Positions 2,830 to 15,376 of a stretch of DNA of 64,000 nt are shown in pieces. Every line of letters begins with the position of its first letter. Position 1 is the first letter of the stretch. Position numbers and translations under genes: made by a program. This DNA comes from Dyella jiangningensis (GTDB taxonomy: Bacteria; Pseudomonadota; Gammaproteobacteria; Xanthomonadales; Rhodanobacteraceae), in assembly GCF_003264855.1 (NCBI RefSeq), contig NZ_NFZS01000004.1:1054001-1118000 (forward strand), written 5' to 3'. A model generated the notes under the pieces. The model ran no database searches and had not been told where the DNA came from. It saw nothing but the letters and a program-made list of their open reading frames with translations.

Positions 2830-3182
2830 CCATCCCGTTGATCGGTTGTCAGCCCCCTACTGAGCTATCCAGCCGGCAATCGGCACCCGTGCTCTGCCCC
2901 GACGATCCAGCGCTGCCGGGGCGAACGAATGGGATTGTTCGGGGCCGATCGTGAAGGCAGGCTGAGGCACCCGCCGGGAATACCGGCGTGCGTACAGGCT
3001 TCGTGAAGTACGGGGCGAACGGCCGGAGGCGAGCCGGTCCGGCGACCGGCAACGCCGCCCTGACCGCGTGCTGCGGTCCGGTGGATAGACAGGGATGTCG
3101 CGAGAATGGTGCGGCAGCAGGCATAGAAAATGTCACGCAAGCTGCTTATTAGAAAGCGGTTTCATGACCAAGCCCTCGGGAC
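2830..3182. other. Intergenic region left of the integrated element
   Basis: No convincing gene is seen here. It should hold the promoter of the deacetylase/formyltransferase operon on the minus strand and the chromosomal flank of the left attachment site. The sequence is GC-rich with several small inverted repeats (for example around GCCGGTCCGGCGACCGGC at about 3029-3050), but no T-rich terminator tail is evident. Confidence 0.5.
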
Positions 3183-3205
3183 CTACCGCCATAGTTACCG
3201 TCACT
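3183..3205 (+). repeat. Left attachment-site repeat (attL) of the element
   Basis: These 23 bp match 15286-15308 in the same orientation with a single difference (T at 3192, A at 15295). The second copy lies just upstream of the integrase start. A direct repeat 12.1 kb apart that flanks all the element genes is what site-specific integration leaves. The repeat contains TTACCGTCA at 3195-3203, a 9-mer that recurs near the integrase promoter. No tRNA gene is part of it. Confidence 0.8.
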
Positions 3206-3350
3206 GGACGGACCTATTCCGCCAGGCCATGGCTGCGCACTAGCTGACCGAAGCCGATGCAACCCGGCCTCTCACCATCAGCACATTGATTCCAGCGTAC
3301 CCACGGGAAATATTTCCCGCTGCCCATTTCGGGCTCAGGAGGGGACCGCC

Positions 3351-3497
3351 ATGACCAGCAAGAAGGGACCACCCAACTATCGCGACGCCGGCACAGGTCA
3401 GTTCGTAACCGAGGGCTATGCCAAGAAGCACCCTGGGACGACCGAGAAAGAACACAACAAACCTGCCCCAAAGCCGCCTAGCAAGCCCAAAAAGTAG
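3351..3497 (+). CDS. Small basic element protein (RDAGTGQFVTEGYAKKHP type)
   Basis: This 48-residue protein starts at an ATG 8 bases after a strong AGGAGG ribosome binding site (3337-3342). It has the pattern YRDAGTGQFVTEGYAKKHPG followed by a lysine- and proline-rich tail (KPAPKPPSKPKK). Short proteins with the motif RDxGTGQFVTxxYAxKxPxTT are common in phages and integrative elements; their function is unknown to me. It is the leftmost gene of the element and reads away from attL. A GC-rich inverted repeat (GCCCGGGG/CCCCCGGGC, about 3508-3536) follows the stop and may end the transcript, although it lacks a T run. Confidence 0.7.
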   Translation: MTSKKGPPNYRDAGTGQFVTEGYAKKHPGTTEKEHNKPAPKPPSKPKK

Positions 3498-3843
3498 CGC
3501 GACGCTTAGCCCGGGGAGCGCAGCCCCCCGGGCATTGGGCATGCATGTCGCAAGGACGCCTAGGTTGGTGTATCCGGCCGATCGCCTTAGGACCTACGAA
3601 GCTCGCTAGATGGCTTGGCGCCTAGCTTTGACGAATTACTGTACTGATCAAATCCGCCCACAACGAAACAACCACCGCCCCTCCCAAAAAATTTCATAAA
3701 TAGCGCGCGATCGGGGTCCGAATTACCCCCAACCCATCAAACTGCTCAGGGGCCCCGACGAAATGAGACCCGGCCGCGCCTTGCCTGAATCAAAACCCGA
3801 GGGCGCCGCCGCGAGACAAACGGGTCAGGGAAGCCGCGATAGG
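3498..3843. other. Gene-poor stretch in the left arm of the element
   Basis: I see no gene I can support. An open frame from the ATG at 3763 (61 codons, plus strand) has no family resemblance and overlaps the better-supported minus-strand gene at 3844. The part near 3640-3740 is noticeably more AT-rich (CCCAAAAAATTTCATAAATAG) than the rest of the window and could hold a promoter or a packaging or replication site. Nothing decisive is visible. Confidence 0.4.
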
Positions 3844-4050
3844 TCAACGCTTACGCTGCCGTGCGCGCACGCGATCGAGGGCGGCATGCTTCTCCTGCTT
3901 TCTGCGTTGCAATGCACGCCACGCGGCCGCGCCAGCGGAGACCAGTAGGAAGGCGGCCATTACAGCGGCCCACCATAGATTCAGATCCTCCATCCATTCC
4001 GGGCGTGGGCGGTACGGGCGCACCAGCAATGCCGCCGCGAGCAGGTCCAT
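3844..4050 (-). CDS. Small single-pass membrane protein, unknown
   Basis: The protein has 68 residues from the ATG at 4050, which has GAGAAGGGGAA about ten bases upstream. A hydrophobic segment of about 20 residues (WWAAVMAAFLLVSAGAAAW, residues 26-44) is followed by a very basic tail (RRKQEKHAALDRVRARQRKR). This layout is typical of small inner-membrane proteins with a cytoplasmic tail, including phage holin or Rz-accessory types, but no family is recognised. It is divergent from the AlpA gene at 4119 and shares a promoter region of under 70 bp with it. An internal ATG at residue 20 is a possible alternative start. Confidence 0.5.
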   Translation of the reverse strand: MDLLAAALLVRPYRPRPEWMEDLNLWWAAVMAAFLLVSAGAAAWRALQRRKQEKHAALDRVRARQRKR

Positions 4051-4118
4051 GCGCGAGATTCCCCTTCTCTTCTACGAGTCATAGTCCGACGGCCGAACCA
4101 CAAGAGCAAGGAACACCA

Positions 4119-4349
4119 ATGACCAAGCGATTCATCAAGCTCGACCAGGTTAAACAGATGACGAGCCTGAGCCGTGCCGCCATCTACAAGCGCATCGCGC
4201 ACGGCGCATTTCCAGCCCAAGTCAAGCTCGGGGCCACCTCGGTCTGGCTAGAGTCGGAAATAGAAGGATGGATTCAGCGCAAGGTGGACGAAAGAGATCA
4301 ATCCCTGGCGCGCTCACTCGGCTCATTCATCCATGGACCCAGTAAGTAA
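4119..4349 (+). CDS. AlpA-family transcriptional regulator (left copy)
   Basis: This 76-residue winged-helix/MerR-type protein has the family pattern: KLDQVKQMTSLSRAAIYKRI, then FPAQVKLGATSVWLESEIEGWI. AlpA proteins of P4-type elements act as excisionase or as activators of integrase and late genes. The ATG at 4119 follows AAGGA at about 4109-4113 with good spacing; longer frames upstream have no start with similar support. It is one of two AlpA-type genes in the element; the other is at 10796-10999 on the opposite strand. The pair suggests separate control of the left-end and replication/tail operons. Confidence 0.88.
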   Translation: MTKRFIKLDQVKQMTSLSRAAIYKRIAHGAFPAQVKLGATSVWLESEIEGWIQRKVDERDQSLARSLGSFIHGPSK

Positions 4350-4459
4350 CGGCGAAGAAATGCCGCGCCCCACCAGGAGGCGAGGTGTGCGCGGCTGCCG
4401 GTGTTATTGGTGGACACCGCCGGCTGGTCCTCTAGCTTTCCCCATAGCGCACCAACTAA

Positions 4460-4954
4460 CTAGGCCTTGGCTTCGCCTTCCGGCTTTGCTGCCTGGGCTG
4501 CCTTGAAACGCTCGACAGTGCTGGCCCATTGGACTCCGGCGCCAGCACTCTGTGGGTGTGCAGTGCTAATCGCGGCACCTTCGATGTCGACCAGGAAGTC
4601 GGTCAGGTCACGCCTCACATGGTCCGGCGTGGCGCCAGCCATGACGTATCCGACAGCGAGGCGGTTGAGCAAATCGTGCCCGCTACTCTTAGCCGCAGCG
4701 AAGCACATGCCTTCAATCTTGGCCGCATGCGCGAGTCGTTCGGGCACCCCCTGGATAGATAGCGGAGGCGCGGCCATGATCGCGCAACGCACCGGCACGG
4801 AGAGTTTGGAGCTGGCTAGCGCGGGCAGAAGTGTCTTGAGAACGGGGTGGTTCGGCGGGACGAGCAGACCGGCAGCATCAGCCATTCGGACTACAGGCTC
4901 TTTCTTCTTGATTCCAAGGGAAGCCGCGACGCGGTCGATAAGAGGGTTCTTCAT
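4460..4954 (-). CDS. Element protein of unknown function, 164 aa
   Basis: No family is recognised. The protein is alanine-rich and largely helical, without a signal peptide or membrane segment. The segment around residues 95-125 (LLNRLAVGYVMAGATPDHV) is amphipathic. The start is ATG 4954, with GGAGGA nine bases upstream, inside the last codons of the preceding gene, which ends 3 bp before it. It is the last gene of a three-gene minus-strand unit (5514-5873, 4958-5524, 4460-4954) downstream of the replication operon. It is a real gene by ribosome binding site, coupling and codon use; the function is open. Confidence 0.65.
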   Translation of the reverse strand: MKNPLIDRVAASLGIKKKEPVVRMADAAGLLVPPNHPVLKTLLPALASSKLSVPVRCAIMAAPPLSIQGVPERLAHAAKIEGMCFAAAKSSGHDLLNRLAVGYVMAGATPDHVRRDLTDFLVDIEGAAISTAHPQSAGAGVQWASTVERFKAAQAAKPEGEAKA

Positions 4955-4957
4955 TGC

Positions 4958-5524
4958 TCAGTCCTCCAGCAGCACGCGCGGGTCAGCGTCGGCCCTACGA
5001 TGGATGATTACGCCGGCGTTCTCGGCATAGCTGATTAGGCGCTCCTCCTCCATCTCCAGCGCCAGCAGGTCGCGGTCAAGATCGGAGAGTCGCTTGTCGT
5101 AGGCCTTTGATTCGACCGCATCCGTTTCGTCGGCGTACAACGTTTCGACCTCGGCGGCCAAGGTCTTCCGAACGGAATCATGGAACAGGAAGACGAGAGC
5201 GGAGCTCGCATCTCGCATGTCCACTGTGCGACGGGCCTCCGAGATATTGGCATCGTGGATGATCACTGGAGTCGATCGATCTCGGGACATCAAGCACTGT
5301 GTCGCGATTCGGCCACGTTCTCTGAGATCAGCCAGCCACTCGTCAAGGCGAGCCATGGCCTCCCCCTTGCTGATCGAGCTCTGCTCAACCTGCACACGCT
5401 CGCTTTTGAGGCCGGACACGCGTTCGCGGATCTCGTCGATCTTTTCGCGCAAGGTGTCAATTGAGGCACTTACCCCTGAGGCAATGCCCTGGGCTTCCGT
5501 TGCGATTCTGGACTTATAGACCAT
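4958..5524 (-). CDS. Coiled-coil element protein, 188 aa, unknown
   Basis: Heptad-rich stretches are visible near the N-terminus (TLREKIDEIRERVSGLKSER, residues 28-47) and again near residues 145-170 (KRLSDLDRDLLALEMEEERL). There is no catalytic motif or membrane segment. The ATG at 5524 overlaps the end of the upstream gene by 11 bp, so translation is coupled; an in-frame ATG at 5551 would overlap it further. Two consecutive coiled-coil proteins of this kind could form a hetero-oligomer, such as a structural or exclusion complex. That is inference only. Confidence 0.65.
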   Translation of the reverse strand: MVYKSRIATEAQGIASGVSASIDTLREKIDEIRERVSGLKSERVQVEQSSISKGEAMARLDEWLADLRERGRIATQCLMSRDRSTPVIIHDANISEARRTVDMRDASSALVFLFHDSVRKTLAAEVETLYADETDAVESKAYDKRLSDLDRDLLALEMEEERLISYAENAGVIIHRRADADPRVLLED

Positions 5525-5873
5525 TGGGGATGCCCTCGGGGATGAGTTCACGGTGTTCAGCTAGGTAGTCGTGAAGCCGACGAAAAGTTGTGGCGTCGCT
5601 GTCGAATGCCGCTTTCAGCCGCGACAGCTCTTCGGATGCGATATCGCGCACTGCGATAAGGCGCTCTAGCTCGGCCTCGAGAATTTTGAGGCTTCGCCGC
5701 CCATTCTCCGCTTCGCGCTTGTCAATCCGCGCTTCCATAAACGACTTCATATGTCGCTCTTTATCGCGGATCTGTCCCTGTAGATCGCGAACGGTATCGG
5801 CGGCATCTCGCACAGCCGCACCGGCGGCACGCTTGCGAAACGCGAGCCGATGTAATTTCAAGTAGTTCTTCAC
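5514..5873 (-). CDS. Coiled-coil element protein, 119 aa, unknown
   Basis: The GTG at 5873 is chosen because AGAGGAGG lies five bases upstream; the ATG at 5921 lacks such a site. The protein is basic at its N-terminus (KNYLKLHRLAFRKRAAG) and has a long heptad-type helix (residues about 20-90: VRDLQGQIRDKERHMKSF and SLKILEAELERLIAVRD). No family is recognised. It overlaps the next coiled-coil gene by 11 bp. Its promoter is expected in the 115-bp gap that carries the CGTGAC repeat array, so a protein bound there could control it. Confidence 0.65.
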   Translation of the reverse strand: MKNYLKLHRLAFRKRAAGAAVRDAADTVRDLQGQIRDKERHMKSFMEARIDKREAENGRRSLKILEAELERLIAVRDIASEELSRLKAAFDSDATTFRRLHDYLAEHRELIPEGIPNGL

Positions 5874-5932
5874 ACAACCTCCTCTGCTCGGATGGTGTGT
5901 GCATTCTCGGAATAGCCGCATGCAGCGGCGAT

Positions 5933-5986
5933 GTCACGGCGTGACAGTGCGTGGCTGTCACGTGACAGTTCGTGACGTTCCGTGAC
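5933..5986. repeat. Iteron-like array of GTGAC/GTCAC repeats
   Basis: In 54 bp there are four GTGAC copies on the plus strand (5941, 5962, 5972, 5982) and two GTCAC copies (5933, 5957). The last three form exact 10-bp direct units CGTGACNNTT/TC, one helical turn apart; 5957-5966 is a palindrome GTCACGTGAC. The array sits between the HTH gene (ends 5989) and the coiled-coil operon. With RepA-like ATPase and primase genes nearby it could be a replication origin, or an operator for the HTH protein. Confidence 0.65.
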
Positions 5987-5988
5987 TT

Positions 5989-6240
5989 TTAGCTATCGCA
6001 GCTCTGCCGCCGGGACTCAATCCATCGAAGCAGATCCACGATCGAATACCAGATCCGGCCCGCCTTGAAGTAGTCCGGCCCCATTTCAGCGTTCCGCCAG
6101 TTCCTCAGCGTGCCAACGGATACTCCAATGATTGTCGCTGCTACATCGGGCTGCACACGCAGATCCGGTGTCACCTCCCTTCCTTGAGCGGTGAGTTCCG
6201 CCGCCAGCAGCGACGCCTTCGTTTCCATGGGCGTCGTCAT
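5989..6240 (-). CDS. Helix-turn-helix DNA-binding protein (AlpA/excisionase-like)
   Basis: The 83-residue protein contains a MerR/excisionase-type HTH: VQPDVAATIIGVSVGTLRNW followed by FKAGRIWYSIVDLLRWIESR, in which the tryptophan/tyrosine wing is typical. It is the last gene in a run of eight with 4-bp ATGA overlaps that starts at 9641 and includes the RepA-like ATPase and primase. The GTGAC repeat array begins immediately after its stop, so self-regulation or origin binding is plausible. Distinguishing a replication initiator accessory from an excisionase is not possible from sequence. Confidence 0.75.
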   Translation of the reverse strand: MTTPMETKASLLAAELTAQGREVTPDLRVQPDVAATIIGVSVGTLRNWRNAEMGPDYFKAGRIWYSIVDLLRWIESRRQSCDS

Positions 6241-6425
6241 GCCGCCACCTCGCCATCGCCAACCGGCGGAAGGATTGCCAGCAGCTCGTCACGGCAATGG
6301 ACTACCGCCGCCTGAATGTCGGGCGTGATGGTCCCCGATGGAGCATCGATGGCCAGACCGGAGCCATCCCTTCGGACGGTGGCTCCGACGCTCTGCAGGA
6401 TGAGAAGAACCAGGCAGGCGCTCAT
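6237..6425 (-). CDS. TubC N-terminal docking domain-like small protein
   Basis: The 62 residues match the pattern of TubC_N domains: a leading helix (LVLLILQSVGATVRRDGSGL), the APSGTITPDIQAAV segment, then a helix ending in ELLAIL. TubC_N domains are docking modules known from myxobacterial NRPS/PKS enzymes, and single-domain versions occur beside primase/ATPase genes in mobile elements. Here it overlaps both the HTH gene (6237-6240) and the RepA-like ATPase (6422-6425) by 4 bp. A bridging role in a replication complex is inferred from position, not shown. Confidence 0.65.
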   Translation of the reverse strand: MSACLVLLILQSVGATVRRDGSGLAIDAPSGTITPDIQAAVVHCRDELLAILPPVGDGEVAA

Positions 6426-7660
6426 AATCGGAAGGTCTCTCTGGCACCCTGTTTTTCGGGTAAGTCCGCCAATCCAGAAGTTGGCGGCCTTACGCCACCA
6501 GTGTCCTCAGGAACCCGCATGGTTGAGCCATCTTCCGTAAGACCGCCAGTTTGTATGGCAGGGTTGGCGGCCTTACTAGTGGCGGCCTTACTGGCTTCCC
6601 CTAGCTTCCATGTCCAGTAGCCCCTTCCATTGTTGCCTTCGGTGAAGCGCTGCGCGATGACAGGCAGCTCCGCTTTTGCCCGTTCGATAGTGCGCGGAGA
6701 GAGACCCGCAGCATTGGCCTCGGCCTTCACCTCGTTCACCTTCACCGGGCCATCGCGGAGAATGTCGCGTAGGAATTCGATGGCATCCGCCACAGTGGAC
6801 TCGTGGCCAGTCGTAGGCGCCAGCGCTTCATCAGCGGAGATATTCACCGGGTCCAGATCCCACGTCACAAAGGGAACGCCACCCAGGCCATCCATGATGG
6901 TCTCACCGATCCGATAGGAAGCGCCAGCAAGGTCAGCGCCCAGGTTGTTCTTCAGGGGCGTCATTAACCGTCGCTTCGGATCATCCTTGCATCGAGAGAC
7001 GACGTAAGCCGAACGTGCGGCAGCAACAAAGGCCAGTGAGCCAGTTACGCGCCCGATCGCTTCGCCCTGCGCCTTGTTCAGATGGCTGACGCAGATGACC
7101 GACACTCTGTGGTCGCCGGCCATTTGTGCGAGCGGCGCCAGCAGCGCGCGGACCTCGGCATTATTGTGGCTGTCCGTGCCGGCCAAGTAGGCGCTCACTG
7201 GGTCGATGATGATCAGGCGGCAATCTTTCAAGCGCCCGAGCATGCTCGTGAGTGCCGGCACATCGGCCAGGGTGAACCCACGCTCGCCTTCCATGTCGCA
7301 CACCGCCTTGAGGTAGTACACCTTGTTCACGTCCGCGCCAGCGGCGTCCAAACGCGGCCTCAATGTGTCGCCAGGGTCATCCTCACCCGAGACCAGCACC
7401 ACCGATCCCTTCGGGCAGTGGGAGCCGTCTACCCACTTCCGCCCGGTAGATACGTGGGCGGCCATATCCATGGTCACGAGGGATTTGCCCAGGCCCGGGT
7501 GGCCGGCAAGCACGCTGAGCTTTCCCAGCGCGAAATGTGGCCGCCAAAGCCATTCGATCGGCTGCGGACTCACCGTAGCCAACGGGATGATCGAGGCGCC
7601 AACAACTGCCCGGCGCGCTTCATCGATCGCCTTTACCACCTGGCTTGCGTTATTCGTCAT
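6422..7660 (-). CDS. RepA-like AAA ATPase (hexameric helicase type)
   Basis: This 412-residue protein has a RecA-type ATPase core (AAA_25/RepA group): Walker A GHPGLGKS at about residues 53-60, Walker B LIIIDPVSAYLAG near 150, and VICVSHLNKAQGEAIGRVTG as the motif 3/4 region. The C-terminal part resembles a winged-helix (KVNEVKAEANAAGLSPRTIE) with a proline-rich tail. Such proteins are 5'-3' replicative helicases of plasmids and mobile elements, working with a primase. It overlaps the Toprim primase gene upstream and the TubC_N-like gene downstream by 4 bp each. It is probably the replication helicase of the element. Confidence 0.85.
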   Translation of the reverse strand: MTNNASQVVKAIDEARRAVVGASIIPLATVSPQPIEWLWRPHFALGKLSVLAGHPGLGKSLVTMDMAAHVSTGRKWVDGSHCPKGSVVLVSGEDDPGDTLRPRLDAAGADVNKVYYLKAVCDMEGERGFTLADVPALTSMLGRLKDCRLIIIDPVSAYLAGTDSHNNAEVRALLAPLAQMAGDHRVSVICVSHLNKAQGEAIGRVTGSLAFVAAARSAYVVSRCKDDPKRRLMTPLKNNLGADLAGASYRIGETIMDGLGGVPFVTWDLDPVNISADEALAPTTGHESTVADAIEFLRDILRDGPVKVNEVKAEANAAGLSPRTIERAKAELPVIAQRFTEGNNGRGYWTWKLGEASKAATSKAANPAIQTGGLTEDGSTMRVPEDTGGVRPPTSGLADLPEKQGARETFRL

Positions 7661-8550
7661 GCGTTGCTTGCCTCACGAAATGTGTCAGCGCCGCCATGTG
7701 CGGCGTAGTCGTTGAAGTCGCCCGCTATCGGCGGCACGGCTACGTAGCCATCCACGGCGCGCGCAGCGGCCGTCGCGGCGCGTAGGCCAGGGTTACTGCC
7801 ATCGGGCTTCAGGTCGTTGTCTGCGGCGACCGTGATGCGGGCCGTCGGGTACTTGCCGCGCATCGTTTGGGAGATCGCCACCAGGTTTCCAGCAGAGAAG
7901 GCGATGGCCACCGGAAGGCCTGTAGCGTCATGCAGACTCTTTCCGGTGGCCCACCCTTCGCAGACGATGATGTGATCGGCCACAGGGCCGCCAAGGCAGG
8001 CGTAGAGGCCCTGGACGCGTCCGCCACGCAGGAAGCGCTTCTGACCGTCGGCGCGGATCCTCTGAAGATTGCAGATGCGCCCTTTGTCGTCGCGGAGCGG
8101 GACCAGCAGGAAACCGCAACGTTCACGAGCGCCAGCGGGTGTGATGCCCTTTCTCTGGAGGTAGGGGTGATGTTCGTTCGCCGGCAGCGACTCTTGCCAT
8201 TGAGCATTGGCCTCACGCTTCGCGAGCTCTTGCTGGTGTCGCACCTGTGCATCACGGGCCGCCTTAGCCTGCTCGATCGCGATGCGCTGCTTCTCGCGCT
8301 CTGCCGGCGTCATGGGATCGCTAGAGCCCAGCACCACCGTTTCGCGGATGTCTCGGGCCCAATGGCCAAAGGCGACCACCGGCCGCGGACCATCGGAGAA
8401 GACCACGCACCAGACGTTGCGCTTGCCCCTCTTGTCGTCTTCGGAGTCGAAGCGGCATAGCACGCCGTCAGGCCGAATCCGCGAAGGGTCTGCCGGCGCC
8501 ACGCCGTTCGCAGGGAGCACGTCGATAACCGAAGCGAGTACGTTGGTCAT
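7657..8550 (-). CDS. Toprim-domain primase of the element
   Basis: The 297 residues show a mobile-element primase layout: a helical linker rich in charged residues (AEREKQRIAIEQAKAARDAQ, about 81-100), then HPYLQRKGITPAG, then a Toprim domain with VCEGWATGKSLHD (the conserved Glu) and VAADNDLKPDGSNPG (the DxD). No zinc finger is evident at the N-terminus. It would make primers for replication driven by the adjacent RepA-like helicase. It overlaps its neighbours by 4 bp on both sides within the eight-gene operon. Length and domains agree with P4-alpha-related split primase/helicase systems, in which the two activities lie on separate proteins. Confidence 0.85.
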   Translation of the reverse strand: MTNVLASVIDVLPANGVAPADPSRIRPDGVLCRFDSEDDKRGKRNVWCVVFSDGPRPVVAFGHWARDIRETVVLGSSDPMTPAEREKQRIAIEQAKAARDAQVRHQQELAKREANAQWQESLPANEHHPYLQRKGITPAGARERCGFLLVPLRDDKGRICNLQRIRADGQKRFLRGGRVQGLYACLGGPVADHIIVCEGWATGKSLHDATGLPVAIAFSAGNLVAISQTMRGKYPTARITVAADNDLKPDGSNPGLRAATAAARAVDGYVAVPPIAGDFNDYAAHGGADTFREASNA

Positions 8551-8795
8551 ACACCGACCTCCGCCAGCAGCTCGGTCACTTCTTTCATCAGGGAGCGGGC
8601 GGCCCAGCAGGCGGCTGGAAGCGTCTCCTCCGCCAGGTTCGACGTCTTTGCCGAGCCGATCAGGTCGATGATCGCCATGGCCTTGTGAATGCGATCGTCG
8701 ATGGCGTCGAGCAGGTCAAGTCGCTTTCCGGCTGTGTTCGACGCCTGCGTCGCTTCGGAATCGTGGATGAGGAATCGGCGGGTGTGACTGCTCAT
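8547..8795 (-). CDS. Small helical element protein, 82 aa (DUF3077-like?)
   Basis: The start ATG at 8795 overlaps the previous gene by 4 bp; longer frames lack support. The N-terminus (SSHTRRFLIHDSE) is polar, followed by helices with LDLLDAIDDRIHKAMAIIDL and a C-terminal helix AARSLMKEVTELLAEVG. The layout of a short polar start, a helix, a gap and a helix ending in a leucine-rich stretch is shared with the two genes upstream, and the three may be distant paralogues. The function is unknown; position in the replication operon suggests an accessory or regulatory role. Confidence 0.6.
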   Translation of the reverse strand: MSSHTRRFLIHDSEATQASNTAGKRLDLLDAIDDRIHKAMAIIDLIGSAKTSNLAEETLPAACWAARSLMKEVTELLAEVGV

Positions 8796-9049
8796 ACCTG
8801 GCCCTCCAGGCTGCCGACCAGGCCGCGCACCATCTCCAGCAGCATTTCCATGCCGCATGCACGGTCGGTCTCGATACCGTCCTGAGCACCATCCCTCGCC
8901 ATACCGATGAGTGACTCAAGAGTGCGAAGCGCCAGCGCAACCACCAAGTCGGCGGGGACGCTCTCTTTCACTTCGAACACGTTCCCGTCTGCAGCGGGAA
9001 TGTCGTAGAAGCCGCTACCGAAGGTGATGGGGCCTTTATCGCGCATCAT
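8792..9049 (-). CDS. Small helical element protein, 85 aa (DUF3077-like)
   Basis: The ATG at 9049 follows GGAGGT by six bases. The sequence FEVKESVPADLVVALALRTL followed by MEMLLEMVRGLVGSLEG resembles DUF3077 proteins, small helical proteins frequent in Pseudomonas and Xanthomonas elements, in which a GVP/SVP step precedes a long helix. It has 4-bp overlaps with both neighbours. No catalytic residues are visible. The family assignment is by pattern and should be treated as tentative. Confidence 0.6.
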   Translation of the reverse strand: MMRDKGPITFGSGFYDIPAADGNVFEVKESVPADLVVALALRTLESLIGMARDGAQDGIETDRACGMEMLLEMVRGLVGSLEGQV

Positions 9050-9342
9050 GGCTTCACCTCCAACGCATTGACGATCCCTTGGATCATCTGCAGCTGGTAG
9101 ACAAGTCCCCAGAGACAAGCGGCAATGTCCCCGGGACATTCGCGAATTCCGCCTCCCTCAGTCGAAAGGCCTTCGGCGATGACGTTCGCCGTGCCAATAG
9201 CCGCCTCAAGGAGGCAGTTCGCATCGCTCGCCATTGAGGCGTTCGTGGTCCTCGCTCCGATGCTGTACTCGCCGTTGATCTTGAGCAGCCGGTGTTGCAC
9301 GGCCTGCGTTCCGATGGGGGTAACCTGAGCAACGGTGTTCAT
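9046..9342 (-). CDS. Small helical element protein, 98 aa
   Basis: The ATG at 9342 overlaps the upstream gene by 4 bp. A polar N-terminus with NTVAQVTPIGTQAVQHRLL is followed by SDANCLLEAAIGTANVIAEG and a C-terminal helix CLWGLVYQLQMIQGIVNALE. It shares the general architecture of the next two genes downstream and may belong to the same expanded family. No known domain is recognised. It is second in the eight-gene operon. Confidence 0.6.
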   Translation of the reverse strand: MNTVAQVTPIGTQAVQHRLLKINGEYSIGARTTNASMASDANCLLEAAIGTANVIAEGLSTEGGGIRECPGDIAACLWGLVYQLQMIQGIVNALEVKP

Positions 9343-9641
9343 GCGCAGATCTCCAGTGAATTGCCGCGCGCAGCGACGAGCCGGAGATTGGGCCGAGTCT
9401 TCACAGGCTCTTGCGCGGCCATGAGCGCAAGCAACTGGCACACCCGGGCCTCGCTGACCAAGGAACCGCCCGCACGAACAGGAGGCGCCGGCGGGGTGCA
9501 GGCGGTGACGTCAGGCCACAATTTGGCCAGCTCGTCCACCAAACGATCGACGGTGCTGGCAGGAATGGCCTTGGATAGCCGCTTGGTGGCGGCACGGATG
9601 CGCGCGTGCGCGATAGACGTGACTTGGGTGTGCTTCGTCAT
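9339..9641 (-). CDS. First gene of the replication operon, 100 aa, unknown
   Basis: The ATG at 9641 gives a 100-residue protein with a helical N-terminal half (SIAHARIRAATKRLSKAIPA, STVDRLVDELAKLWPDV), a proline-rich link (CTPPAPPVRAGG) and a C-terminal half with SEARVCQLLALMAAQEP. No family is recognised. It begins the chain of eight ATGA-overlapping genes (9641 to 5989), so the operon promoter should lie in 9642-9789. A frame opening at 9791 runs into this gene but crosses the likely promoter/terminator region and is not preferred. Confidence 0.6.
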   Translation of the reverse strand: MTKHTQVTSIAHARIRAATKRLSKAIPASTVDRLVDELAKLWPDVTACTPPAPPVRAGGSLVSEARVCQLLALMAAQEPVKTRPNLRLVAARGNSLEICA

Positions 9642-9912
9642 GACGGGATCCTTGAGTGTTGGGATCCGCCGCCAGCCGTTTCCACACAGAGGCGACGGAC
9701 GTGCCGGGGTGGAAAACCGGGACTCAAGGAACCCGGCCAGGCCGAAGCCTGCCCGACACGCCCGCCATAAAAGCTGGGCATGACGCAACAAAAAAGCGCC
9801 GTTGCGGCGCCGTTGCGCCTTGAGTTACTCGGGTTTCCACGCCCGGTCGCCGATTTTGCGGCGACGGCTGGAATATGCGCCCGGCCTTGGTCGGCAGTCA
9901 AGAGGTGCATGG
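9642..9912. promoter_or_regulatory. Promoter region of the replication operon
   Basis: This 271-bp gap lies between the tail/AlpA operon (ends 9913) and the first replication-operon gene. It holds a minus-strand terminator at 9790-9811 and, closer to 9642, space for the promoter. Direct or inverted elements such as GGAT..GTGTTGGGATCC (9647-9665) and GTTTCCACAC / GTGGAAAACC (about 9678-9715) are visible; the second pair could be an operator or DnaA-type site. No consensus -35/-10 can be named with confidence. Confidence 0.45.
9790..9811 (-). terminator. Intrinsic terminator of the AlpA/gpI operon
   Basis: Read on the minus strand, GGCGCC, a GCAAC loop and GGCGCT are followed by six T. It lies about 100 bp after the gpI-like gene and before the replication operon, so it separates the two units. 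The GCGCCGTTGCG unit is tandemly repeated, giving an alternative longer stem. Confidence 0.65.
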
Positions 9913-10593
9913 TTAGGGCACCTCGTCGTACGGAGTCTTGAGACCACTGCCACCAGCGGTGCCGGCGCCCACGCCGTTGGTGGCCGGGCTGTAGTCATCG
10001 GCCTCCATGCCGGCGGAGATAACGGCCGAGCCGACGATCATGCGGCCATAGACCACTGGCACCGGATTGCCCTGAGCCGTGGTGTTCACGGGCCCATTGA
10101 AGACGTAGCTGGCCTGGTTGTCGGCGCTGTCGGCGTTCTTCTGCAGCTTGGCCTGCGGTGAAAGCATCTGAACGATGCCGCCGGCGACCATGCCGATGCC
10201 TAGGCTTGTGACTGCCCCTCCGACCGGCGCCGCCAGTCCCCAGCTGGAGGCCGAGATAGCTGCGCCAGCGACGATCAAGGCAACTCCCAGGACCGTTTGG
10301 AGTAGACCGCTCTTCGAACCCATCAGCACAGGTGCAATGGTGATGCAATCGCCTGCGGGCTCATTCAGTTGATCGCGGCCGATGTTTTCCTTGTGTTGGC
10401 CGCGACCACGGAAGACAGCAAACGTCAGGCCCTTTTGGTGCGCCGTGGCGAAGTAGTCTCGGGCACCGGGAAAGTTGGCCAGGATCCATCGCATGGCCTC
10501 GGCCGTGCACTTCGTATCCAGATGCACCTGGTGAGAGCGTCCGTAACGTTTGCCCAGCGTGCCTACCAATTTGATTTCGGTCGGCGTCGTCAT
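9913..10593 (-). CDS. Lambda gpI-like tail assembly protein
   Basis: The protein has 226 residues, the normal length for phage tail assembly protein I. The N-terminal half has the ubiquitin-like pattern (IKLVGTLGKRYGRSHQVHLD, then MRWILANFPGARDYF). A hydrophobic glycine-rich middle follows (LQTVLGVALIVAGAAIS, residues about 99-115). The C-terminal signature is SYVFNGPVNTTAQGNPVPVV then VGSAVISAGMEADDY. In lambda, gpI works with gpK, gpL and gpJ in the tail tip. Here no K, L, J or other tail gene is near; it is the last gene of a three-gene unit with a zinc-ribbon protein and an AlpA regulator. An intact lone tail gene in a satellite-like element is unusual. Confidence 0.85.
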   Translation of the reverse strand: MTTPTEIKLVGTLGKRYGRSHQVHLDTKCTAEAMRWILANFPGARDYFATAHQKGLTFAVFRGRGQHKENIGRDQLNEPAGDCITIAPVLMGSKSGLLQTVLGVALIVAGAAISASSWGLAAPVGGAVTSLGIGMVAGGIVQMLSPQAKLQKNADSADNQASYVFNGPVNTTAQGNPVPVVYGRMIVGSAVISAGMEADDYSPATNGVGAGTAGGSGLKTPYDEVP

Positions 10594-10799
10594 GCGGCGA
10601 CCCTCGCCGGCATTTTTTCGGCGCGGGCATTGAGCTCGCTGGCGAACCCTTCATCGCGAAGGGTGCGGGCGACGCATGGCGCACAGATGGTGTACTCGGT
10701 TACCAAGCTGCCGGACGTGTGGGTGACCGTCATGGCGGCGTGGTGGTTGCGGATCCGCTTTTCGCAGCCAAGGCAGTGACGACGATCGAGCCGGCTCAT
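10590..10799 (-). CDS. Small zinc-ribbon-like protein, 69 aa
   Basis: Two Cys pairs are visible: CLGC at residues 9-12 and CAPC at 39-42, with HH between them, suggesting a zinc ribbon. The remainder is basic (RRHCLGCEKRIRNHH) with a helical C-terminus. It overlaps the gpI-like gene by 4 bp downstream and the AlpA gene by 4 bp upstream. Small zinc-binding proteins of this type in phages and elements often bind nucleic acid or act as transcription cofactors; the family here is not recognised. Confidence 0.6.
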   Translation of the reverse strand: MSRLDRRHCLGCEKRIRNHHAAMTVTHTSGSLVTEYTICAPCVARTLRDEGFASELNARAEKMPARVAA

Positions 10800-10999
10800 G
10801 CATCACCCTTCGGCTCTGCCAGCCAGGCGCGCACATCCTCAGCACGCCAGGCTGTGACGCGATCGGAAAGCTTGATGGGCTTGGGGAATTTGCCTTCCTT
10901 GACCCAGCGCCAGAGCGTGGTCGCTCCGATGGGTAGGATGGAACCGACGAGCTGCGCCTGGCGCAGGTAGCCGGTAGATGGAATGTCGTGAAGCTGCAT
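10796..10999 (-). CDS. AlpA-family transcriptional regulator (right copy)
   Basis: This 67-residue AlpA-type protein contains GYLRQAQLVGSILPIGATTL, then WRWVKEGKFPKPIKLSDRV, then TAWRAEDVRAWLAEP. The last segment is the typical wing and helix of the family. It is the first gene of the AlpA/zinc-ribbon/gpI operon. As its sequence differs clearly from the left AlpA gene (4119-4349), the two probably have different targets. In P4-type elements AlpA proteins regulate integrase and act as excisionase. Confidence 0.85.
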   Translation of the reverse strand: MQLHDIPSTGYLRQAQLVGSILPIGATTLWRWVKEGKFPKPIKLSDRVTAWRAEDVRAWLAEPKGDA

Positions 11000-11072
11000 T
11001 GCACGTCACCGTGTGTTGTGGTGACGCGCAAACTATCCAGGATATTGGCCGAGCAAAACAGAGGGTTTGGGT

Positions 11073-11573
11073 CTAATCTCCCTTGTATCGTTTGGACCAG
11101 TATTGATCGCGCAGCGTGTATGCGCTTCGGTCAAATCGAAAATGCACGCGCAGCAGCTGTGAAGCCACCTCAAAGGCGGACGGCTTTGCTGCCGACTCAC
11201 CCAATGGGTACCCGTATCTTTCGTGAAGCGCAGCGATAAGGCCAATCACGGCCTGCGCGCCACCAGCTCTCGAAGGCTTGTTACCCCTCTTCGCTCGTTC
11301 GAGGCCAAACGCTTGGCCCAACGTGACGCCGCCAGCAGCGTGTCTATCTAGAGCACTCACTGTGAACGCCCGCACTTCCTCTGATATCGGCTCGTTTGCC
11401 GTCAGTTGACGACGGAGCCAATAAAGGTACGAAGATGCCGCTGGCAGATCATCGCCCGACAGCGCGTTCGCAGTCACCTGCGTGCCATCGATGTTCATAT
11501 ACGGCCGCACATCAGCCCAGAGCTTCTGCAGCTCATCTGGATCAAGTGGAAAATCTGCGGTATCGGAAACCAT
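11073..11573 (-). CDS. Element protein of unknown function, 166 aa
   Basis: The ATG at 11573 is preferred, with GAAGG seven bases upstream; the frame opens further to 11738, but that part has element-unlike composition. The protein is mixed acidic/basic with FPLDPDELQKLWADVRPYMN at residues 8-27, a helical middle, and a C-terminus rich in aromatic and basic residues (YTLRDQYWSKRYKGD). No membrane segment or recognised domain is present. It is alone on its strand between the AlpA operon and the divergent lipoprotein gene. Confidence 0.55.
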   Translation of the reverse strand: MVSDTADFPLDPDELQKLWADVRPYMNIDGTQVTANALSGDDLPAASSYLYWLRRQLTANEPISEEVRAFTVSALDRHAAGGVTLGQAFGLERAKRGNKPSRAGGAQAVIGLIAALHERYGYPLGESAAKPSAFEVASQLLRVHFRFDRSAYTLRDQYWSKRYKGD

Positions 11574-11910
11574 ATGCGCACCTTCGCTGCGCCCTTCGAA
11601 GGAAGCCACGGCAACGGGTGAAGGTTTCCCGCTTTCGGCTGGCCGGCCTAGCCGTGGCGAGCCCATGCTACTGCGGTTATCAATCTGAAGCATGCGCCTA
11701 GCAGCACCAACGTTTCCCAGGCACGTTCTGCAACGCACCCGTACGCGTTGCAGTTGCGATTGGCTGGCAGCGTACCTCGACGCCGACTCGGTCTCGCGCC
11801 TATACCATTTAGGTGATCGGTCATCCGCTGGATCTTTGGCACAATCGCGCCGGGGGATCCGGGCGAATTACGGTTCGCATGGGTCGATGGAAGTGACACA
11901 TGGAGGAACT
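11574..11910. other. Divergent intergenic region inside the element
   Basis: This region separates the minus-strand gene at 11073-11573 from the plus-strand lipoprotein gene at 11911. Frames on both strands cross it without family resemblance or ribosome binding sites, and I do not call a gene. It should carry two divergent promoters. Confidence 0.4.
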
Positions 11911-12615
11911 ATGACTATCCAACTGATCAAGTGCGCAGCGCTGATCGTCGCCACTGTGGTTGTCGCCGGCTGCGCAACAGCGCCACAAGGTCCACCGCCG
12001 CCAGCCTCCCTTGTATTCCCGAATGCGCAAGCATCAAATCTTGCCTCGCGTTTCACTGCCCTCTGCGGAACCGGTGGAGCACGCATCATCAGCAGCTCTG
12101 CCTACATGGTGGAGTGTGCCCGCCCGATGGGTGATAGCTTCAAGGAGACGATGTATAAGGCGCTGGCCGTCGAACAACGCGGCGCATCCAATCCCGATTT
12201 TCATTTGCAATGGAGCTTTGTCGATGTGCCTGGCGGAGCCCAAGTGTCTGCCCATACGTGGATCGAGCATCAAAACGCGTTTGGAAAGAATGAGCGTGAT
12301 GACGTTGGCCCAGGTGAAGCAGGCCGAGTAATGGAAGGTGCCCTAGCTGCATGGAAAGAACACCATGCAGGCAATGGCGATACTGGGCGTGTTAGTGGAC
12401 CTTCGGCGCCAGCAAACGCCCCTTTGGAAACCAAAGTGGCCATGCTGGATCTGATGCGAGCCCAGCAAGTTGCCAAGGATCAGAACTGTTCGAACACGCG
12501 CACCAGTGGCCAGGGCTTCCGCGCGTCCTGCGGACAGTATGACCTTCTCATTGACTGCGATGCGACGAAGTGCCGTCCAGTGCGTACGGTGCAGTCTGAG
12601 GCCGTCACTCAGTAA
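11911..12615 (+). CDS. Element-encoded lipoprotein, 234 aa
   Basis: The ATG at 11911 has GGAGGA five bases upstream. The N-terminus is a lipoprotein signal: MTIQLIKCAALIVATVVV ending in the lipobox VAGC, with Cys at residue 22, so the mature protein is lipidated and exported. The mature part begins with a proline-rich link (PQGPPPPAS). It has several cysteines (CGTGG, VECARP, QNCSN, ASCGQ, DCDATKC) that may form disulfides in the periplasm. The family is not recognised. As cargo of a mobile element, surface roles such as superinfection exclusion are possible; this is inference. Confidence 0.75.
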   Translation: MTIQLIKCAALIVATVVVAGCATAPQGPPPPASLVFPNAQASNLASRFTALCGTGGARIISSSAYMVECARPMGDSFKETMYKALAVEQRGASNPDFHLQWSFVDVPGGAQVSAHTWIEHQNAFGKNERDDVGPGEAGRVMEGALAAWKEHHAGNGDTGRVSGPSAPANAPLETKVAMLDLMRAQQVAKDQNCSNTRTSGQGFRASCGQYDLLIDCDATKCRPVRTVQSEAVTQ

Positions 12616-12681
12616 GGTATTTGCGCACGGATCTTTCGCTGGATTGCACGATGTAAGAACAACCGATAGATGGGATGCGGA

Positions 12682-13035
12682 ATGAAACGTGATTGGGATC
12701 TGGTGAGGCAAATCCTCCTTGAGCTGGAGGAAGTTGGGCACGATAGGGTCGTAGTGCACGACGACGGGCAAGATACCAATGTCTTCGGCTACCACTGCAA
12801 GCTGATGCACGACGCTGGATTGATCGAAGCAAACATTACCGAGTACCACGGCGGAGCCATTTCTGGTCAAGCTGTTCGGATGACCTGGGCTGGCCATGAA
12901 TTCCTGGACAGCATCCGTCCGAAGAGCACATGGGAAAAGGTGAAAATGCAGGCCAAGGAAAAGGGCATCGGCTTGACGTTGGACGCGATCAAGACACTCG
13001 CCGAGATAGCGATGAAGGCAGCGATCGCCGGCTAG
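12682..13035 (+). CDS. DUF2513 family protein
   Basis: The ATG at 12682 begins MKRDWDLVRQILLELEEVGH, the usual DUF2513 start. The family consists of small proteins of about 110-130 residues with a winged-helix-like fold: FGYHCKLMHDAGLIEA is the recognition-helix region and WAGHEFLDSIRPKSTWEKV the C-terminal signature. DUF2513 proteins are common in phages and genomic islands. Their role is unknown, probably regulatory. It follows the lipoprotein gene by 66 bp and may share its transcript. Confidence 0.88.
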   Translation: MKRDWDLVRQILLELEEVGHDRVVVHDDGQDTNVFGYHCKLMHDAGLIEANITEYHGGAISGQAVRMTWAGHEFLDSIRPKSTWEKVKMQAKEKGIGLTLDAIKTLAEIAMKAAIAG

Positions 13036-13077
13036 CGCGGCGCCCTTTCGCTGTTGCGCCAGCCGCAGGTTGCAAAC

Positions 13078-13102
13078 AAAAAAAGCCCCGCCGAAGCGGG
13101 GC
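13078..13102 (-). terminator. Intrinsic terminator of the toxin-antitoxin operon
   Basis: The stem GCCCCGC (13085-13091) and GCGGGGC (13096-13102) with a CGAA tetraloop is followed, on the minus strand, by a seven-T run. It lies 13 bp after the antitoxin stop. It also sits 43 bp past the convergent DUF2513 stop and may act weakly in that direction. Confidence 0.85.
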
Positions 13103-13115
13103 TGTGAGTGCGCAC

Positions 13116-13481
13116 TCAAGCCGTCTTGCGCTCTCTTTCCAGATATTCGGCGACAGGCCCTTGATCAGAGCCTGCCGCTTTCGCACGACGCTCTGCTTCC
13201 TCGAGCTTTTCACTCATGATCTGCTTGATCTCGCTCACAGCGAAACGGTTCAACATGTCGCGAATCAACGGCTGATAGGCCACGCCCCGACATTCCGCTA
13301 TGAACTTCAAGTTCTGAATGAGCGAACGCTCCAGGCGAATGGATACCGGATGCAGGTTGAGCGAGCTGTCGATAGCCCTACAGAGGTCATCGCTGATGAC
13401 TTCCGCGTGGTCCATGCTGCGACCGAGCTCCCCCGATTCCCACGGGTCGTGCTGTTCGGCTGCTTTGGACTTGGCGTTCAT
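13116..13481 (-). CDS. Antitoxin, CopG/BrnA-like (121 aa)
   Basis: The ATG at 13481 is preferred because the GAGG eight bases upstream lies in the stop region of the toxin gene; ATG 13487 is an alternative. The central part (HPVSIRLERSLIQNLKFIAE) is a ribbon-helix-helix-like strand and helix. It is followed by CRGVAYQPLIRDMLNRFAVS, the usual BrnA-type arrangement. The long C-terminal helix (EKLEEAERRAKAAG) could bind the toxin. It lies directly after the toxin gene, reversed from most type II systems but normal for BrnTA. The pair is probably autoregulated through palindromes upstream. Confidence 0.78.
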   Translation of the reverse strand: MNAKSKAAEQHDPWESGELGRSMDHAEVISDDLCRAIDSSLNLHPVSIRLERSLIQNLKFIAECRGVAYQPLIRDMLNRFAVSEIKQIMSEKLEEAERRAKAAGSDQGPVAEYLERERKTA

Positions 13482-13491
13482 GGTCATTCCC

Positions 13492-13788
13492 TCAAAAGTC
13501 ACTTGGTTGCCCTTTAGCTCGGTAGATCGCGAGCTCCTCAGCATTGGCGCTGTAGGCGGTACGAATATGGAGCCCATCCTCCTTCGGGATGAAGCAAACT
13601 TTCAGCAGGCGCCGATGATTGGTGAAGGCAACGAACCACACGGTCGGCGGATCCGTGCGGTGCTCTTCTCGAGTGTCATAAAGAATTTTGCCAGTTCGAT
13701 TCGCGAAGGCCTCTTCGACCTCCTTCCGACTGACGCTGTGTTTGTCAGTCAGCTTCTGCTGCACTTTTGCAGAGATGATGATGCCCAT
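13492..13788 (-). CDS. Putative BrnT/RelE-like toxin (98 aa)
   Basis: The 98-residue basic protein has VQQKLTDKHSVSRKEVEEAF at the N-terminus, then strands VWFVAFTNHRRLLKVCFI and a C-terminal HIRTAYSANAEELAIYR. This is the layout of BrnT-type RNases with a small RelE-like fold, although the order of conserved residues differs from classical BrnT. Relatives are often misnamed ADP-ribosyl-(dinitrogen reductase) hydrolase. The partner antitoxin follows after 10 bp. It is first in the operon, whose promoter region carries two TGTATATACA palindromes. Substrate and activity are not proven. Confidence 0.72.
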   Translation of the reverse strand: MGIIISAKVQQKLTDKHSVSRKEVEEAFANRTGKILYDTREEHRTDPPTVWFVAFTNHRRLLKVCFIPKEDGLHIRTAYSANAEELAIYRAKGQPSDF

Positions 13789-13819
13789 CTCGAACGTCCC
13801 TGTACGTGATGCTCGTCAA

Positions 13820-13874
13820 TGTATATACAAACCCGAATGTTCCGCAATAGCCCAGAGGCTTACCTGTATATACA
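13820..13874. promoter_or_regulatory. Paired operator palindromes of the toxin-antitoxin operon
   Basis: Two identical 10-bp palindromes TGTATATACA lie at 13820-13829 and 13865-13874, centres 45 bp apart, upstream of the toxin start (13788). Such paired AT-rich palindromes next to a CopG-type antitoxin operon fit autoregulation. This stretch is much more AT-rich than the rest of the window. Confidence 0.7.
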
Positions 13875-13992
13875 TCGCTCGGTTCAAGAATAACTTTAGC
13901 CAAATGATGCCCCGATGAATAATGCAGCCGAGCACCCGCATTGTTCATAAAAATGACCAAATATCAGCAGCTTGCGTGAATTCGACCCACAG

Positions 13993-14031
13993 CAGATACA
14001 CTGCGCCAGCTTCACCGGCGCAGTGTATCTG
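13993..14031. repeat. 15-bp perfect inverted repeat across the integrase stop
   Basis: The arms at 13993-14007 and 14017-14031 are exact reverse complements with a 9-nt loop (14008-14016). The integrase stop codon (14012-14014) is in the loop and the last codons are in one arm. No T run follows, so a Rho-independent terminator is uncertain. It may still stabilise the mRNA end or be a protein-binding site. Confidence 0.6.
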
Positions 14032-15256
14032 CCGTCAGGAGACGGTTTGACGCAGCCGGCACCGCAGGGATGACCGCTACCCTGAGCCCGTCTAGATAGT
14101 CCGCCCAAGCCTGCATCATGCGTTTGCGTTCATCCATGTATTGGGCGCGGTTATAGGCGGCGCGCACCTTGTTTCGCTCGGCGTGTGCGAGTTGGCGCTC
14201 GATCACGTCCGGTGCCCATCCCATTTCGTTGAGACGGGTTGACGCCATTGCACGGAAGCCATGGCCGGTCATGGTGTCCTTGTCGAAGCCCATTCTGCGC
14301 AGAGCTGCGTTGACGGTCCCATCGGACATCGGCCGCTGGCGGCTACGCTCACTGGGAAACACGAATCGGCCATTGCCCGTCAGTGGTTTCAGCTCTCGCA
14401 GCACGGCCACGGCCTGTGGCGATAGTGGGATGGCGTGCTCCTCGCGCACCTTCATTTTTCCTGCAGGGATGCGCCACAGTGCCGCCTCCATGTCGACCTC
14501 CGACCACTCTGCTTGCCGCAGTTCACCAGGCCGCGCAAAAACCAGCGGGGCCAGCTTCAAGGCGCAACGCACTACAAAGCTACCGGCGTAACCATCGATG
14601 GCACGCAGCAGCTCGCCCACCTTGAGAGGGTCTGTCACCGCGGCGCGATGCGTGGTTTTGGCTGGCGTCAGCGCGCCACGTAGGTCCGCAGTAGGGTCAC
14701 GGCTGGCACGATGGGTTGCGATGGCATAGCGAAAGACCTGGCCACAACGCTGCTTCGTTCGGTGAGCCGTCTCGTGGGCGCCCCGATCCTCGATCCGGCG
14801 TAGCAACCTCAACACCTCGGGTGGGTCGATATCGGCAATTGGCCGATCACCCATCCAAGGGAACACCAGGTCATCAAAGGTCCAGCGGGCTTTCTCGAGC
14901 GTAGCCGGTGCCATCCGGCCGGCCTGCTTTGCCAGCCACTCCTCGGCAATGACCGCGAAGCTGTTGGCGGCTCGCTCAGCGCCAGCCGCCTTAGTGGCCT
15001 TCCGGTGTTCGCCAGGATCAACGCCGGCCGCCAGTAGTCGCCGCGCCTCGTTGCGCTTCTCTCGGGCGTCAGCCAGTCCGGTATCCGGATAGGTACCCAT
15101 GCTCAGCGTCTTGCGCTTGCCGCCATTGCGATAGTCGAAGCGCCACCAGCGAGACCCGTTCGGGTTGAGCAGCAGGTAGAGGCCCGCACCATCCGAGAGT
15201 TTCAATGGCTTGTCGGATGCCTTGGTTTTCCGGATCGACGTATCGGTAAGCGGCAT
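14012..15256 (-). CDS. int: P4-type tyrosine integrase
   Basis: The start ATG at 15256 gives MPLTDTSIRKTKASDKPLKL, the usual P4-integrase start, and a 414-residue protein. An upstream in-frame start at 15307 would translate the att repeat and is rejected. The domains are an N-terminal DUF4102 arm-binding domain (about 1-90), a core-binding domain, and a catalytic domain. The catalytic domain has Arg in FARPGELRQAEW, HGFR, His in LAHAERN, and the nucleophile Tyr in RAAYNRAQYMDER. The enzyme carries out integration at the 23-bp repeats. TGACGGTAA boxes lie at its start and upstream, so its own expression is likely controlled there. Confidence 0.95.
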   Translation of the reverse strand: MPLTDTSIRKTKASDKPLKLSDGAGLYLLLNPNGSRWWRFDYRNGGKRKTLSMGTYPDTGLADAREKRNEARRLLAAGVDPGEHRKATKAAGAERAANSFAVIAEEWLAKQAGRMAPATLEKARWTFDDLVFPWMGDRPIADIDPPEVLRLLRRIEDRGAHETAHRTKQRCGQVFRYAIATHRASRDPTADLRGALTPAKTTHRAAVTDPLKVGELLRAIDGYAGSFVVRCALKLAPLVFARPGELRQAEWSEVDMEAALWRIPAGKMKVREEHAIPLSPQAVAVLRELKPLTGNGRFVFPSERSRQRPMSDGTVNAALRRMGFDKDTMTGHGFRAMASTRLNEMGWAPDVIERQLAHAERNKVRAAYNRAQYMDERKRMMQAWADYLDGLRVAVIPAVPAASNRLLTADTLRR

Positions 15257-15306
15257 GACGGTAACACCCATGACGGTAAAGCTAACTACCGCCAAAGTTA
15301 CCGTCA
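15256..15306. promoter_or_regulatory. TGACGGTAA boxes at the integrase start and attR
   Basis: The 9-mer TGACGGTAA is found at 15256-15264 and 15271-15279 (plus) and as TTACCGTCA at 15298-15306 inside attR; the same TTACCGTCA is in attL (3195-3203). The copy at 15256 touches the integrase start codon, so bound protein would block expression. These may be integrase arm/core sites or AlpA operators. Confidence 0.55.
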
Positions 15307-15308
15307 CT
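15286..15308 (+). repeat. Right attachment-site repeat (attR) of the element
   Basis: This 23-bp direct repeat of 3183-3205 has one mismatch (A at 15295). It lies 30 bp upstream of the integrase start codon and 42 bp to the left of the tRNA-Thr terminator. It marks the right end of the integrated element. Confidence 0.8.
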
Positions 15309-15349
15309 TACCGCCGGCTTCAACGGGATGACATGGAACCTATCGGCAC

Positions 15350-15376
15350 AAAAAAGCCCGCTCTTATGCGGGCTTT
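15350..15376 (-). terminator. Intrinsic terminator of tRNA-Thr
   Basis: The stem AAAGCCCGC (15353-15361) and GCGGGCTTT (15368-15376) with a TCTTAT loop is followed, on the minus strand, by six T. It lies 44 bp beyond the tRNA CCA end. Confidence 0.88.

Follow-up and report, generated by a model that had tools for sequence, protein, structure and literature searches.

A lone lambda-type tail-tip gene, gpI, in an integrative element with P4-type RNAs of Dyella jiangningensis and its recurrence in other elements

Introduction

Why would an integrative element with no other recognised virion gene keep an intact gene for one part of a phage tail? The question is raised by a 12.1 kb integrated element of Dyella jiangningensis, which lies at positions 3183–15308 of a 64,000-nucleotide stretch of contig NZ_NFZS01000004.1 (the whole stretch is called the window below, and coordinates are those of the window) between two copies of a 23-bp repeat. 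The gene encodes gpI, the plug (insertion) protein of lambda-type tail tips. In lambda, gpI is described as a trimer inside the virion, where it plugs the tail tube and supports the tape measure; it binds gpJ via beta-strand augmentation, and its insertion into the membrane is considered possible (PMC11101478, PMC10721106). A first-pass annotation, made from the window alone, had proposed that the element is satellite-like and that its gpI may replace or poison that of a helper phage, favouring transfer of the element or altering host range.

Results

A lone and intact gpI gene

The gpI gene (9913–10593, minus strand) encodes an intact protein of 226 residues without internal stop. It matches positions 5–200 of the 203 in the profile phrog_32, ‘tail assembly protein’ (6e-64), and among solved structures it matches 25vf (9e-42) and 9l9p (1e-26), both putative tail assembly proteins, and 8iyk, ‘Tail tip assembly protein I’ (1e-19). 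An alignment of 30 gpI rows, including those of satellites, contains 27 invariant columns. The closest relative among 50,697 phage records is 49.5% identical, while the closest in any search (71%) is the gpI of a tail cluster on an IMG/VR contig.

The operon that contains gpI begins with a gene for an AlpA regulator or excisionase (10796–10999, minus strand; Phage_AlpA 3.5e-9), 75% and 74% identical to its counterparts in two other elements, L029 and L041. It is followed by a gene for a 69-residue zinc-ribbon protein (10590–10799, minus strand), whose CxxC...CxxC pattern is retained in the same two elements. Both 4-bp overlaps (ATGA) reported in the first-pass annotation, one between AlpA and zinc ribbon and the other between zinc ribbon and gpI, were found.

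The gene content described there also holds: an integrase, two AlpA genes, a RepA-like ATPase, a primase and one intact gpI, with no other recognised virion gene. The tyrosine integrase occupies 14012–15307 on the minus strand, its start perhaps nearer 15256 (Phage_integrase 1e-22; Arm-DNA-bind_3 1e-27), and the second AlpA domain lies in the C-terminal half (residues 90–138) of the product of 3861–4349, plus strand (Phage_AlpA 1.8e-16). The RepA-like AAA_25 ATPase (6422–7660; 1.3e-36; 72% to L029) and the Toprim primase (7657–8550; phrog_2249 7e-64; Toprim_3 5e-14) are both on the minus strand. The element thus combines the satellite traits of an integrase, att repeats, its own replication genes and the lack of a complete virion gene set. 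Among the open reading frames (ORFs) scanned, no capsid, portal, terminase or second tail family was found at E 0.001, and profile scans, in which P4 proteins were not used as queries, found no head or packaging family in the element at the same threshold. Weak matches above that threshold are those of the helix-turn-helix protein at 5989–6240 to a terminase small subunit family, at 0.025, and of 5514–5921 to Phage_Nu1, at 0.063. When tail, capsid, portal and terminase proteins from three phages and from related elements were used as tblastn queries, nothing but gpI was hit in the 64-kb window at 0.01.

Four RNA families accompany these genes, all on the minus strand. Between gpI and the replication genes lie a C4 antisense RNA (9688–9772; RF01695, 72.9 bits, E 5e-13), an isrK-like RNA (9790–9865; RF01394, 59.4 bits) and the a1/b1 targets of C4 RNA (9826–9878; RF03163, 50.5 bits), while an int-alpA RNA (11592–11658; RF02996, 61.1 bits) lies between integrase and AlpA and has an 85-bp stretch in common with L029 (96% identity). 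In P4-type elements C4 serves as the immunity RNA. All four families occur in L029; L041 has int-alpA only. An ORF at 9339–9791 was rejected as a whole gene, and at least its 5' part is probably non-coding, because the C4 RNA overlaps it. The same four RNAs are found together at 14641–15430 of a viral contig (L367) which has a phage portal gene.

Lone gpI genes in other elements

A gpI gene without gpJ, gpK, gpL or gpM is present in eight more integrative elements, from the same bacterial order or from viral contigs: L029, L041, L037, L231, L235, L233, L379 and L380. In 233 genomes of the family, 25 gpI matches were found and 23 kept, the other two being weak matches in long frames (G019, G112). 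Eighteen of the 23 lie in 17 tail clusters and five stand alone, namely those of the window, L029 (genome G100), L041 (G097), L037 (G152) and L046/L231 (G183), the G183 contig beginning 1 kb before gpI. An order-wide sample of 398 genomes added eight genomes with gpI, six of them in tail clusters and two with gpI alone (L235 in G286 and L233 in G280, the latter frameshifted). Among viral contigs, 24 relatives of the L235 gpI were found; 22 have gpK or gpJ adjoining and two, L379 and L380, stand alone. For the window-type gpI 34 relatives were found, each accompanied on its stretch by gpK or gpJ (in L174, just a 33% gpK match 2 kb off). Two tail clusters, L038 (9395–10793; G105:C16) and L158, each carry two different gpI genes in tandem.

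The nine elements were found via gpI, so that its presence is by construction; the lack of other tail-tip genes is not, and a marker search for gpJ, gpK, gpL and gpM in the eight element stretches and the whole window found none at 0.01. The gpI of the window is hence not a remnant confined to this locus (one of the eight further cases being frameshifted and one uncertain), nor do tail genes lie beside it in all its relatives, the relatives with complete tail genes being ordinary prophages or phages.

Among gpI, gpK, gpL and gpM, only gpI is captured alone in the family survey. When 230 family genomes per search were examined with the other three genes, none stood alone (gpL 0/17, gpM 0/17, gpK 0/17), all being located in the same 17 tail clusters. 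The 17 gpK correspond to 18 rows, one gene being split, and exclude six weaker partial rows, one of them a 53-residue stretch in G232 at 1e-14. The contrast between 5/23 for gpI and 0/51 for the pooled genes gives P = 0.002, with the three genes linked to one another; against any single gene (0/17) P is ~0.05.

The AlpA/zinc-ribbon/gpI block, which the first-pass annotation had suggested as a search target, is common to the window and its two closest AlpA relatives, L029 and L041. In 230 family genomes the top three matches to AlpA reach E 1e-41 or better and come from precisely those elements in which zinc ribbon and gpI are present; the next three (1e-32 to 1e-23), whose context was inspected, are without gpI.

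Origin and constraint

Satellites have acquired gpI on several separate occasions. Five satellite rows (window, L029, L041, L231 and L235) were tested in a 57-row gpI tree; they need five label changes, each of them forced by well supported branches. The tree leaves out eight duplicate rows, L174, two pieces of L233 and second copies of L231 and L235; the gpI genes of L037 and of L035, a tail cluster in the same genome, lack an open frame and stand outside it, and L379 and L380 were found later. The gpI of L379 and of L380 are 85% and 84% identical to that of L235, and 13 phage gpIs are as close (83–89%). In eight of those 13 phages the L235 tape measure is matched at 84–89%, whereas its portal protein (in five of the eight) is matched at only 59–70%; since gpI and tape measure match the same phages closely and the portal less so, the first two follow one phage lineage.

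The ratio of non-synonymous to synonymous substitution rates (dN/dS) is 0.16 for the window gpI and its nearest phage gpI, 0.11–0.29 across satellite–phage pairs, and 0.10 (window/L029) and 0.39 (window/L041) in pairs of satellites. These values are rough because synonymous sites are near saturation (dS 1.0–3.0), and they place gpI under purifying constraint (0.10–0.39 overall). Tree and dN/dS together led to rejection of the window gpI as a decaying remnant, in line with the earlier argument for function rather than decay. Identity to the nearest phage gpI is 87% in the C-terminal part and 66% in the N-terminal part; the most variable part is 96–148, likewise in phage–phage pairs.

In genome G152, the satellite-like L037 (contig G152:C100) and the tail cluster L035 (G152:C82) share an identical tract of 244 bp at the 3' end of gpI, beyond which 300 of 432 positions (69%) agree. 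The tract fits a recent exchange across the part which binds gpJ in lambda. Both contigs contain in-frame TAGs, mostly where relatives have glutamine, which may reflect recoding or decay; they occur in gpM, gpK, gpI and gpJ of the tail cluster and, on the satellite-like contig, in gpI and terminase. These genes showed no in-frame TAA or TGA, and the clear chromosomal genes inspected are free of in-frame TAG. Amber recoding was considered and not kept, none of the 46 tRNAs found having a CTA anticodon.

Other virion genes in related elements

The virion genes found besides gpI differ from element to element. L029 and L041 each have a capsid gene (45% identity over 323 residues), L380 has a capsid gene, L231 a terminase gene, and L233 a capsid gene and both terminase subunits. 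L037 has a terminase, and its contig ends within the first part of a tape measure. L379 has portal, neck protein and a capsid-like gene; L235 has portal, tape measure and a capsid-like gene, and its gpI sits between portal and tape measure with a 4-bp overlap with the portal gene. The capsid call in L235 and L379 is weak: Pfam gives no match, and identity to the capsid protein of L380 is 29%. In L231 (5835–7306) and L037 (1707–3133) the terminase large subunit is broken at the same position into an ATPase ORF and a nuclease ORF. No useful lead came from searching viral contigs with the terminase of L231 and the capsid of L029, or plasmids with RepA.

Extent and remaining genes of the element

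The end repeats, attL (3183–3205) and attR (15286–15308), both on the plus strand, form a direct repeat matching at 22 of 23 positions; 2e-4 pairs as good are expected by chance in the 13.1-kb region. In the congener G017, homologues of window position ~3000 and of the 3' end of a host tRNA-Thr gene (15420) are only 96 bp apart, compared with 12,419 bp here, which identifies the block 3183–15308 as an insertion. The tRNA-Thr gene (15420–15495, minus strand) lies ~110 bp off the element, and in most congeners similarity starts at or near its 3' end. Insertion exactly at that 3' end was rejected in favour of the 3183/15286 repeat, which is the better fit: no exact repeat of at least 14 nt links 15281–15520 to the remaining window, and no match of at least 16 nt at 85% links the tRNA-Thr side to window 1–14000. 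The tRNA-Thr side resembles a hot spot, the region of a rhodanese gene (2–829) ending at most ~250 bp from the tRNA in six of 19 congeners. Formyltransferase and polysaccharide deacetylase genes (1077–2829), which here separate that region from the tRNA, look like an extra insertion, in part common to G017.

Most other genes of the element have weak or no family assignments. On the minus strand, 4460–4954 encodes a 164-residue protein with no match in Pfam, PHROGs, PADLOC or NCBIfam and no confirmed relative in viral contigs. Two coiled-coil-like proteins follow, one of 197 residues (4958–5551) with weak family matches only and no match in phage records, and one of 135 residues (5514–5921) for which Phage_Nu1 is the best match at 0.063, with none in PHROGs. 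Next are the helix-turn-helix protein (5989–6240; HTH_17-like, 2.9e-5) and a small TubC_N-like protein (6237–6425; 6.7e-5; 81% over 53 residues in L029), both under the Pfam cut-off. Beyond the primase, 8547–8858 has no family in Pfam or PHROGs, 8792–9139 has a 28% relative in L037, and 9046–9339, also without family, has 24–28% relatives in L230. On the plus strand lie a 307-residue ORF (11692–12615), opposite the gpI operon, with a lipoprotein-signal-like middle by eye, no Pfam or NCBIfam family and a PHROG match to an Rz-like spanin at 0.18 only, and a gene for a DUF2513 protein (12670–13035; 9.5e-28). A CopG-antitoxin-like (13116–13577; 3e-5) and a BrnT-toxin-like protein (13492–13788; 1.5e-6), both on the minus strand and under the Pfam cut-off, form a pair which adjoins the integrase.

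Discussion

What the gpI gene does for the satellite

The surveys suggest that elements similar to that of the window build part of a stolen tail themselves. It is marginally probable that the satellite supplies its own tail plug and that helper tails are thereby made chimeric. The element would be a phage satellite with P4-type RNA control, its own replication genes and no recognised head or packaging gene, and gpI would be the sole virion part that it makes. Once the satellite is switched on, gpI would be expressed together with AlpA, as the operon implies. It would then replace the helper gpI in the tail tip, binding gpJ and plugging the tube, and the satellite would travel behind the resulting chimeric tails. 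The likely gain would be control of assembly or DNA delivery, or escape from a block aimed at helper gpI. Because lambda gpI is a tube plug inside the virion, an effect on DNA delivery would be likelier than one on receptor choice. A wider claim can be offered tentatively: unrelated satellites may repeatedly capture the tail protein through which the exit of DNA is controlled, adapt it to local helper phages by recombination and thereby take charge of the injection step of borrowed tails, a form of ‘injection piracy’. The first-pass interpretation is supported in part: of the two roles it proposed for gpI, replacement of the helper protein is backed by the repeated capture of gpI without neighbours, by its position in L235 and, with caution, by the G152 tract.

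Several observations weigh against replacement of the helper plug. The genome that contains the window has no second gpI and no gpL, gpK or gpM, so that a resident helper with a tail of this kind is not seen. Among 369 genomes sampled across the class there is no lone gpI beyond the order; phrog_32 matches outside the window lie in tail clusters, save a weak one in G568 with a weak gpJ match close by. Only some satellites carry a lone gpI: of the AlpA loci, 80 retained in genome contigs (105 confirmed) and 11 in viral contigs, one has gpI on its stretch, that of Frateuria terrea (L050), whose markers are 100% identical to L041, and with one in 80 genome-contig loci gpI is not a general satellite gene. 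The L233 gpI is frameshifted and that of L037 has in-frame TAGs. L037 and L035 may also be parts of one element, since both contigs end inside tape-measure genes, and the G152 element may belong to a prophage; inspection of 48 further G152 stretches for tape-measure pieces led no further. Finally, the C-terminal excess of identity in the window gpI is within ~1.6 standard deviations of phage–phage pairs and is less consistent in other satellites.

Of the alternatives, the one that survives best, while still unlikely, is that gpI is a weapon. Made out of context, it would rival an infecting phage's own gpI in binding gpJ or the tape measure and would spoil tail assembly, so that the host is protected or the satellite favoured. 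Blocking of tail assembly is known in satellites and prophages (Tab, PMC10884400; Tai, PMC11364771), and in the window gpI is grouped with AlpA and not with structural genes. In L235 and L379, however, gpI adjoins capsid-like and portal genes, and the entire protein is kept under constraint. The main texts of the two papers do not contain the word gpI and so offer no precedent for gpI as a blocker.

It is improbable that gpI has been acquired neutrally and recurrently, by recombination with prophages, and is being lost. Such loss would account for the frameshift in L233 and the TAGs in both G152 copies, but not for the dN/dS of 0.11–0.29 against phage gpI, the retention of the AlpA/zinc-ribbon/gpI block in three elements or the finding that gpK, gpL and gpM are not captured in the same genomes. 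Equally doubtful is a satellite-specific task away from the particle, for instance membrane-level superinfection exclusion via hydrophobic helices: the middle helices of lambda gpI have a predicted ability to span a membrane (PMC11101478) and the middle part is the most variable, in phage–phage pairs too, but the gpJ-binding part, which such a task would not need, is conserved at least as well as the rest in most satellite–phage pairs.

Comparison with known satellites

The closest parallel to a satellite-made tail plug comes from the phage-inducible chromosomal island-like elements (PLEs) of Vibrio cholerae. PLE11 places its own tape measure and baseplate hub in virions, and PLEs, whose contribution is tape measure, chaperone and hub, are presented as the first family of satellites known to make tails chimeric (PMC12987554, 2026); the legend of Extended Data Fig. 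10 in that paper mentions putative tmp genes both for PLE-like elements and for a sample of capsid-forming phage-inducible chromosomal islands (cf-PICIs). In both cases the satellite encodes a few tail parts. In PLE11, tape measure and hub have been shown in otherwise phage-made tails, and the PLE parts serve a contractile-tail phage, whereas gpI here would serve lambda-type tails. A tape measure was not found in the window element, where no separate search for a chaperone was made; one is present in L235 and, cut, in L037. With cf-PICIs the gpI elements share an integrase and, in some relatives, their own capsid or terminase, but no capsid, portal or terminase was recognised in the window element, and its relatives have partial sets only.

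P4-like satellites are resembled in the C4 antisense RNA with its a1/b1 targets, AlpA and primase, although among the gpI elements P4-type RNAs are found in two, that of the window and L029. Morphogenesis markers of P4-like satellites are psu, delta and sid; these were not recognised in the window element by the profile scans, for which P4 proteins did not serve as queries, and the element has gpI instead. The lambda-type tail cluster (gpM-L-K-I-J) contains the same gpI family at full length, whereas here gpI stands alone. No report of a tail-tip gpI in satellites was found in open-licence PMC, a scope outside which subscription papers and preprints fall; the ‘Gpi’ of PMC12409358 is an unrelated PLE inhibitor.

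Satellites are known to steal whole tails, and if the capture of gpI is as proposed, remodelling of the tail would be a wider strategy. Repeated capture of gpI in particular would also mark the plug at the DNA exit as a part that it pays to control. The natural pairs of satellite and phage gpI provide material for studying the function of the plug and, if true, injection piracy would add a layer of parasitism beyond capsid size, packaging and tape-measure swaps.

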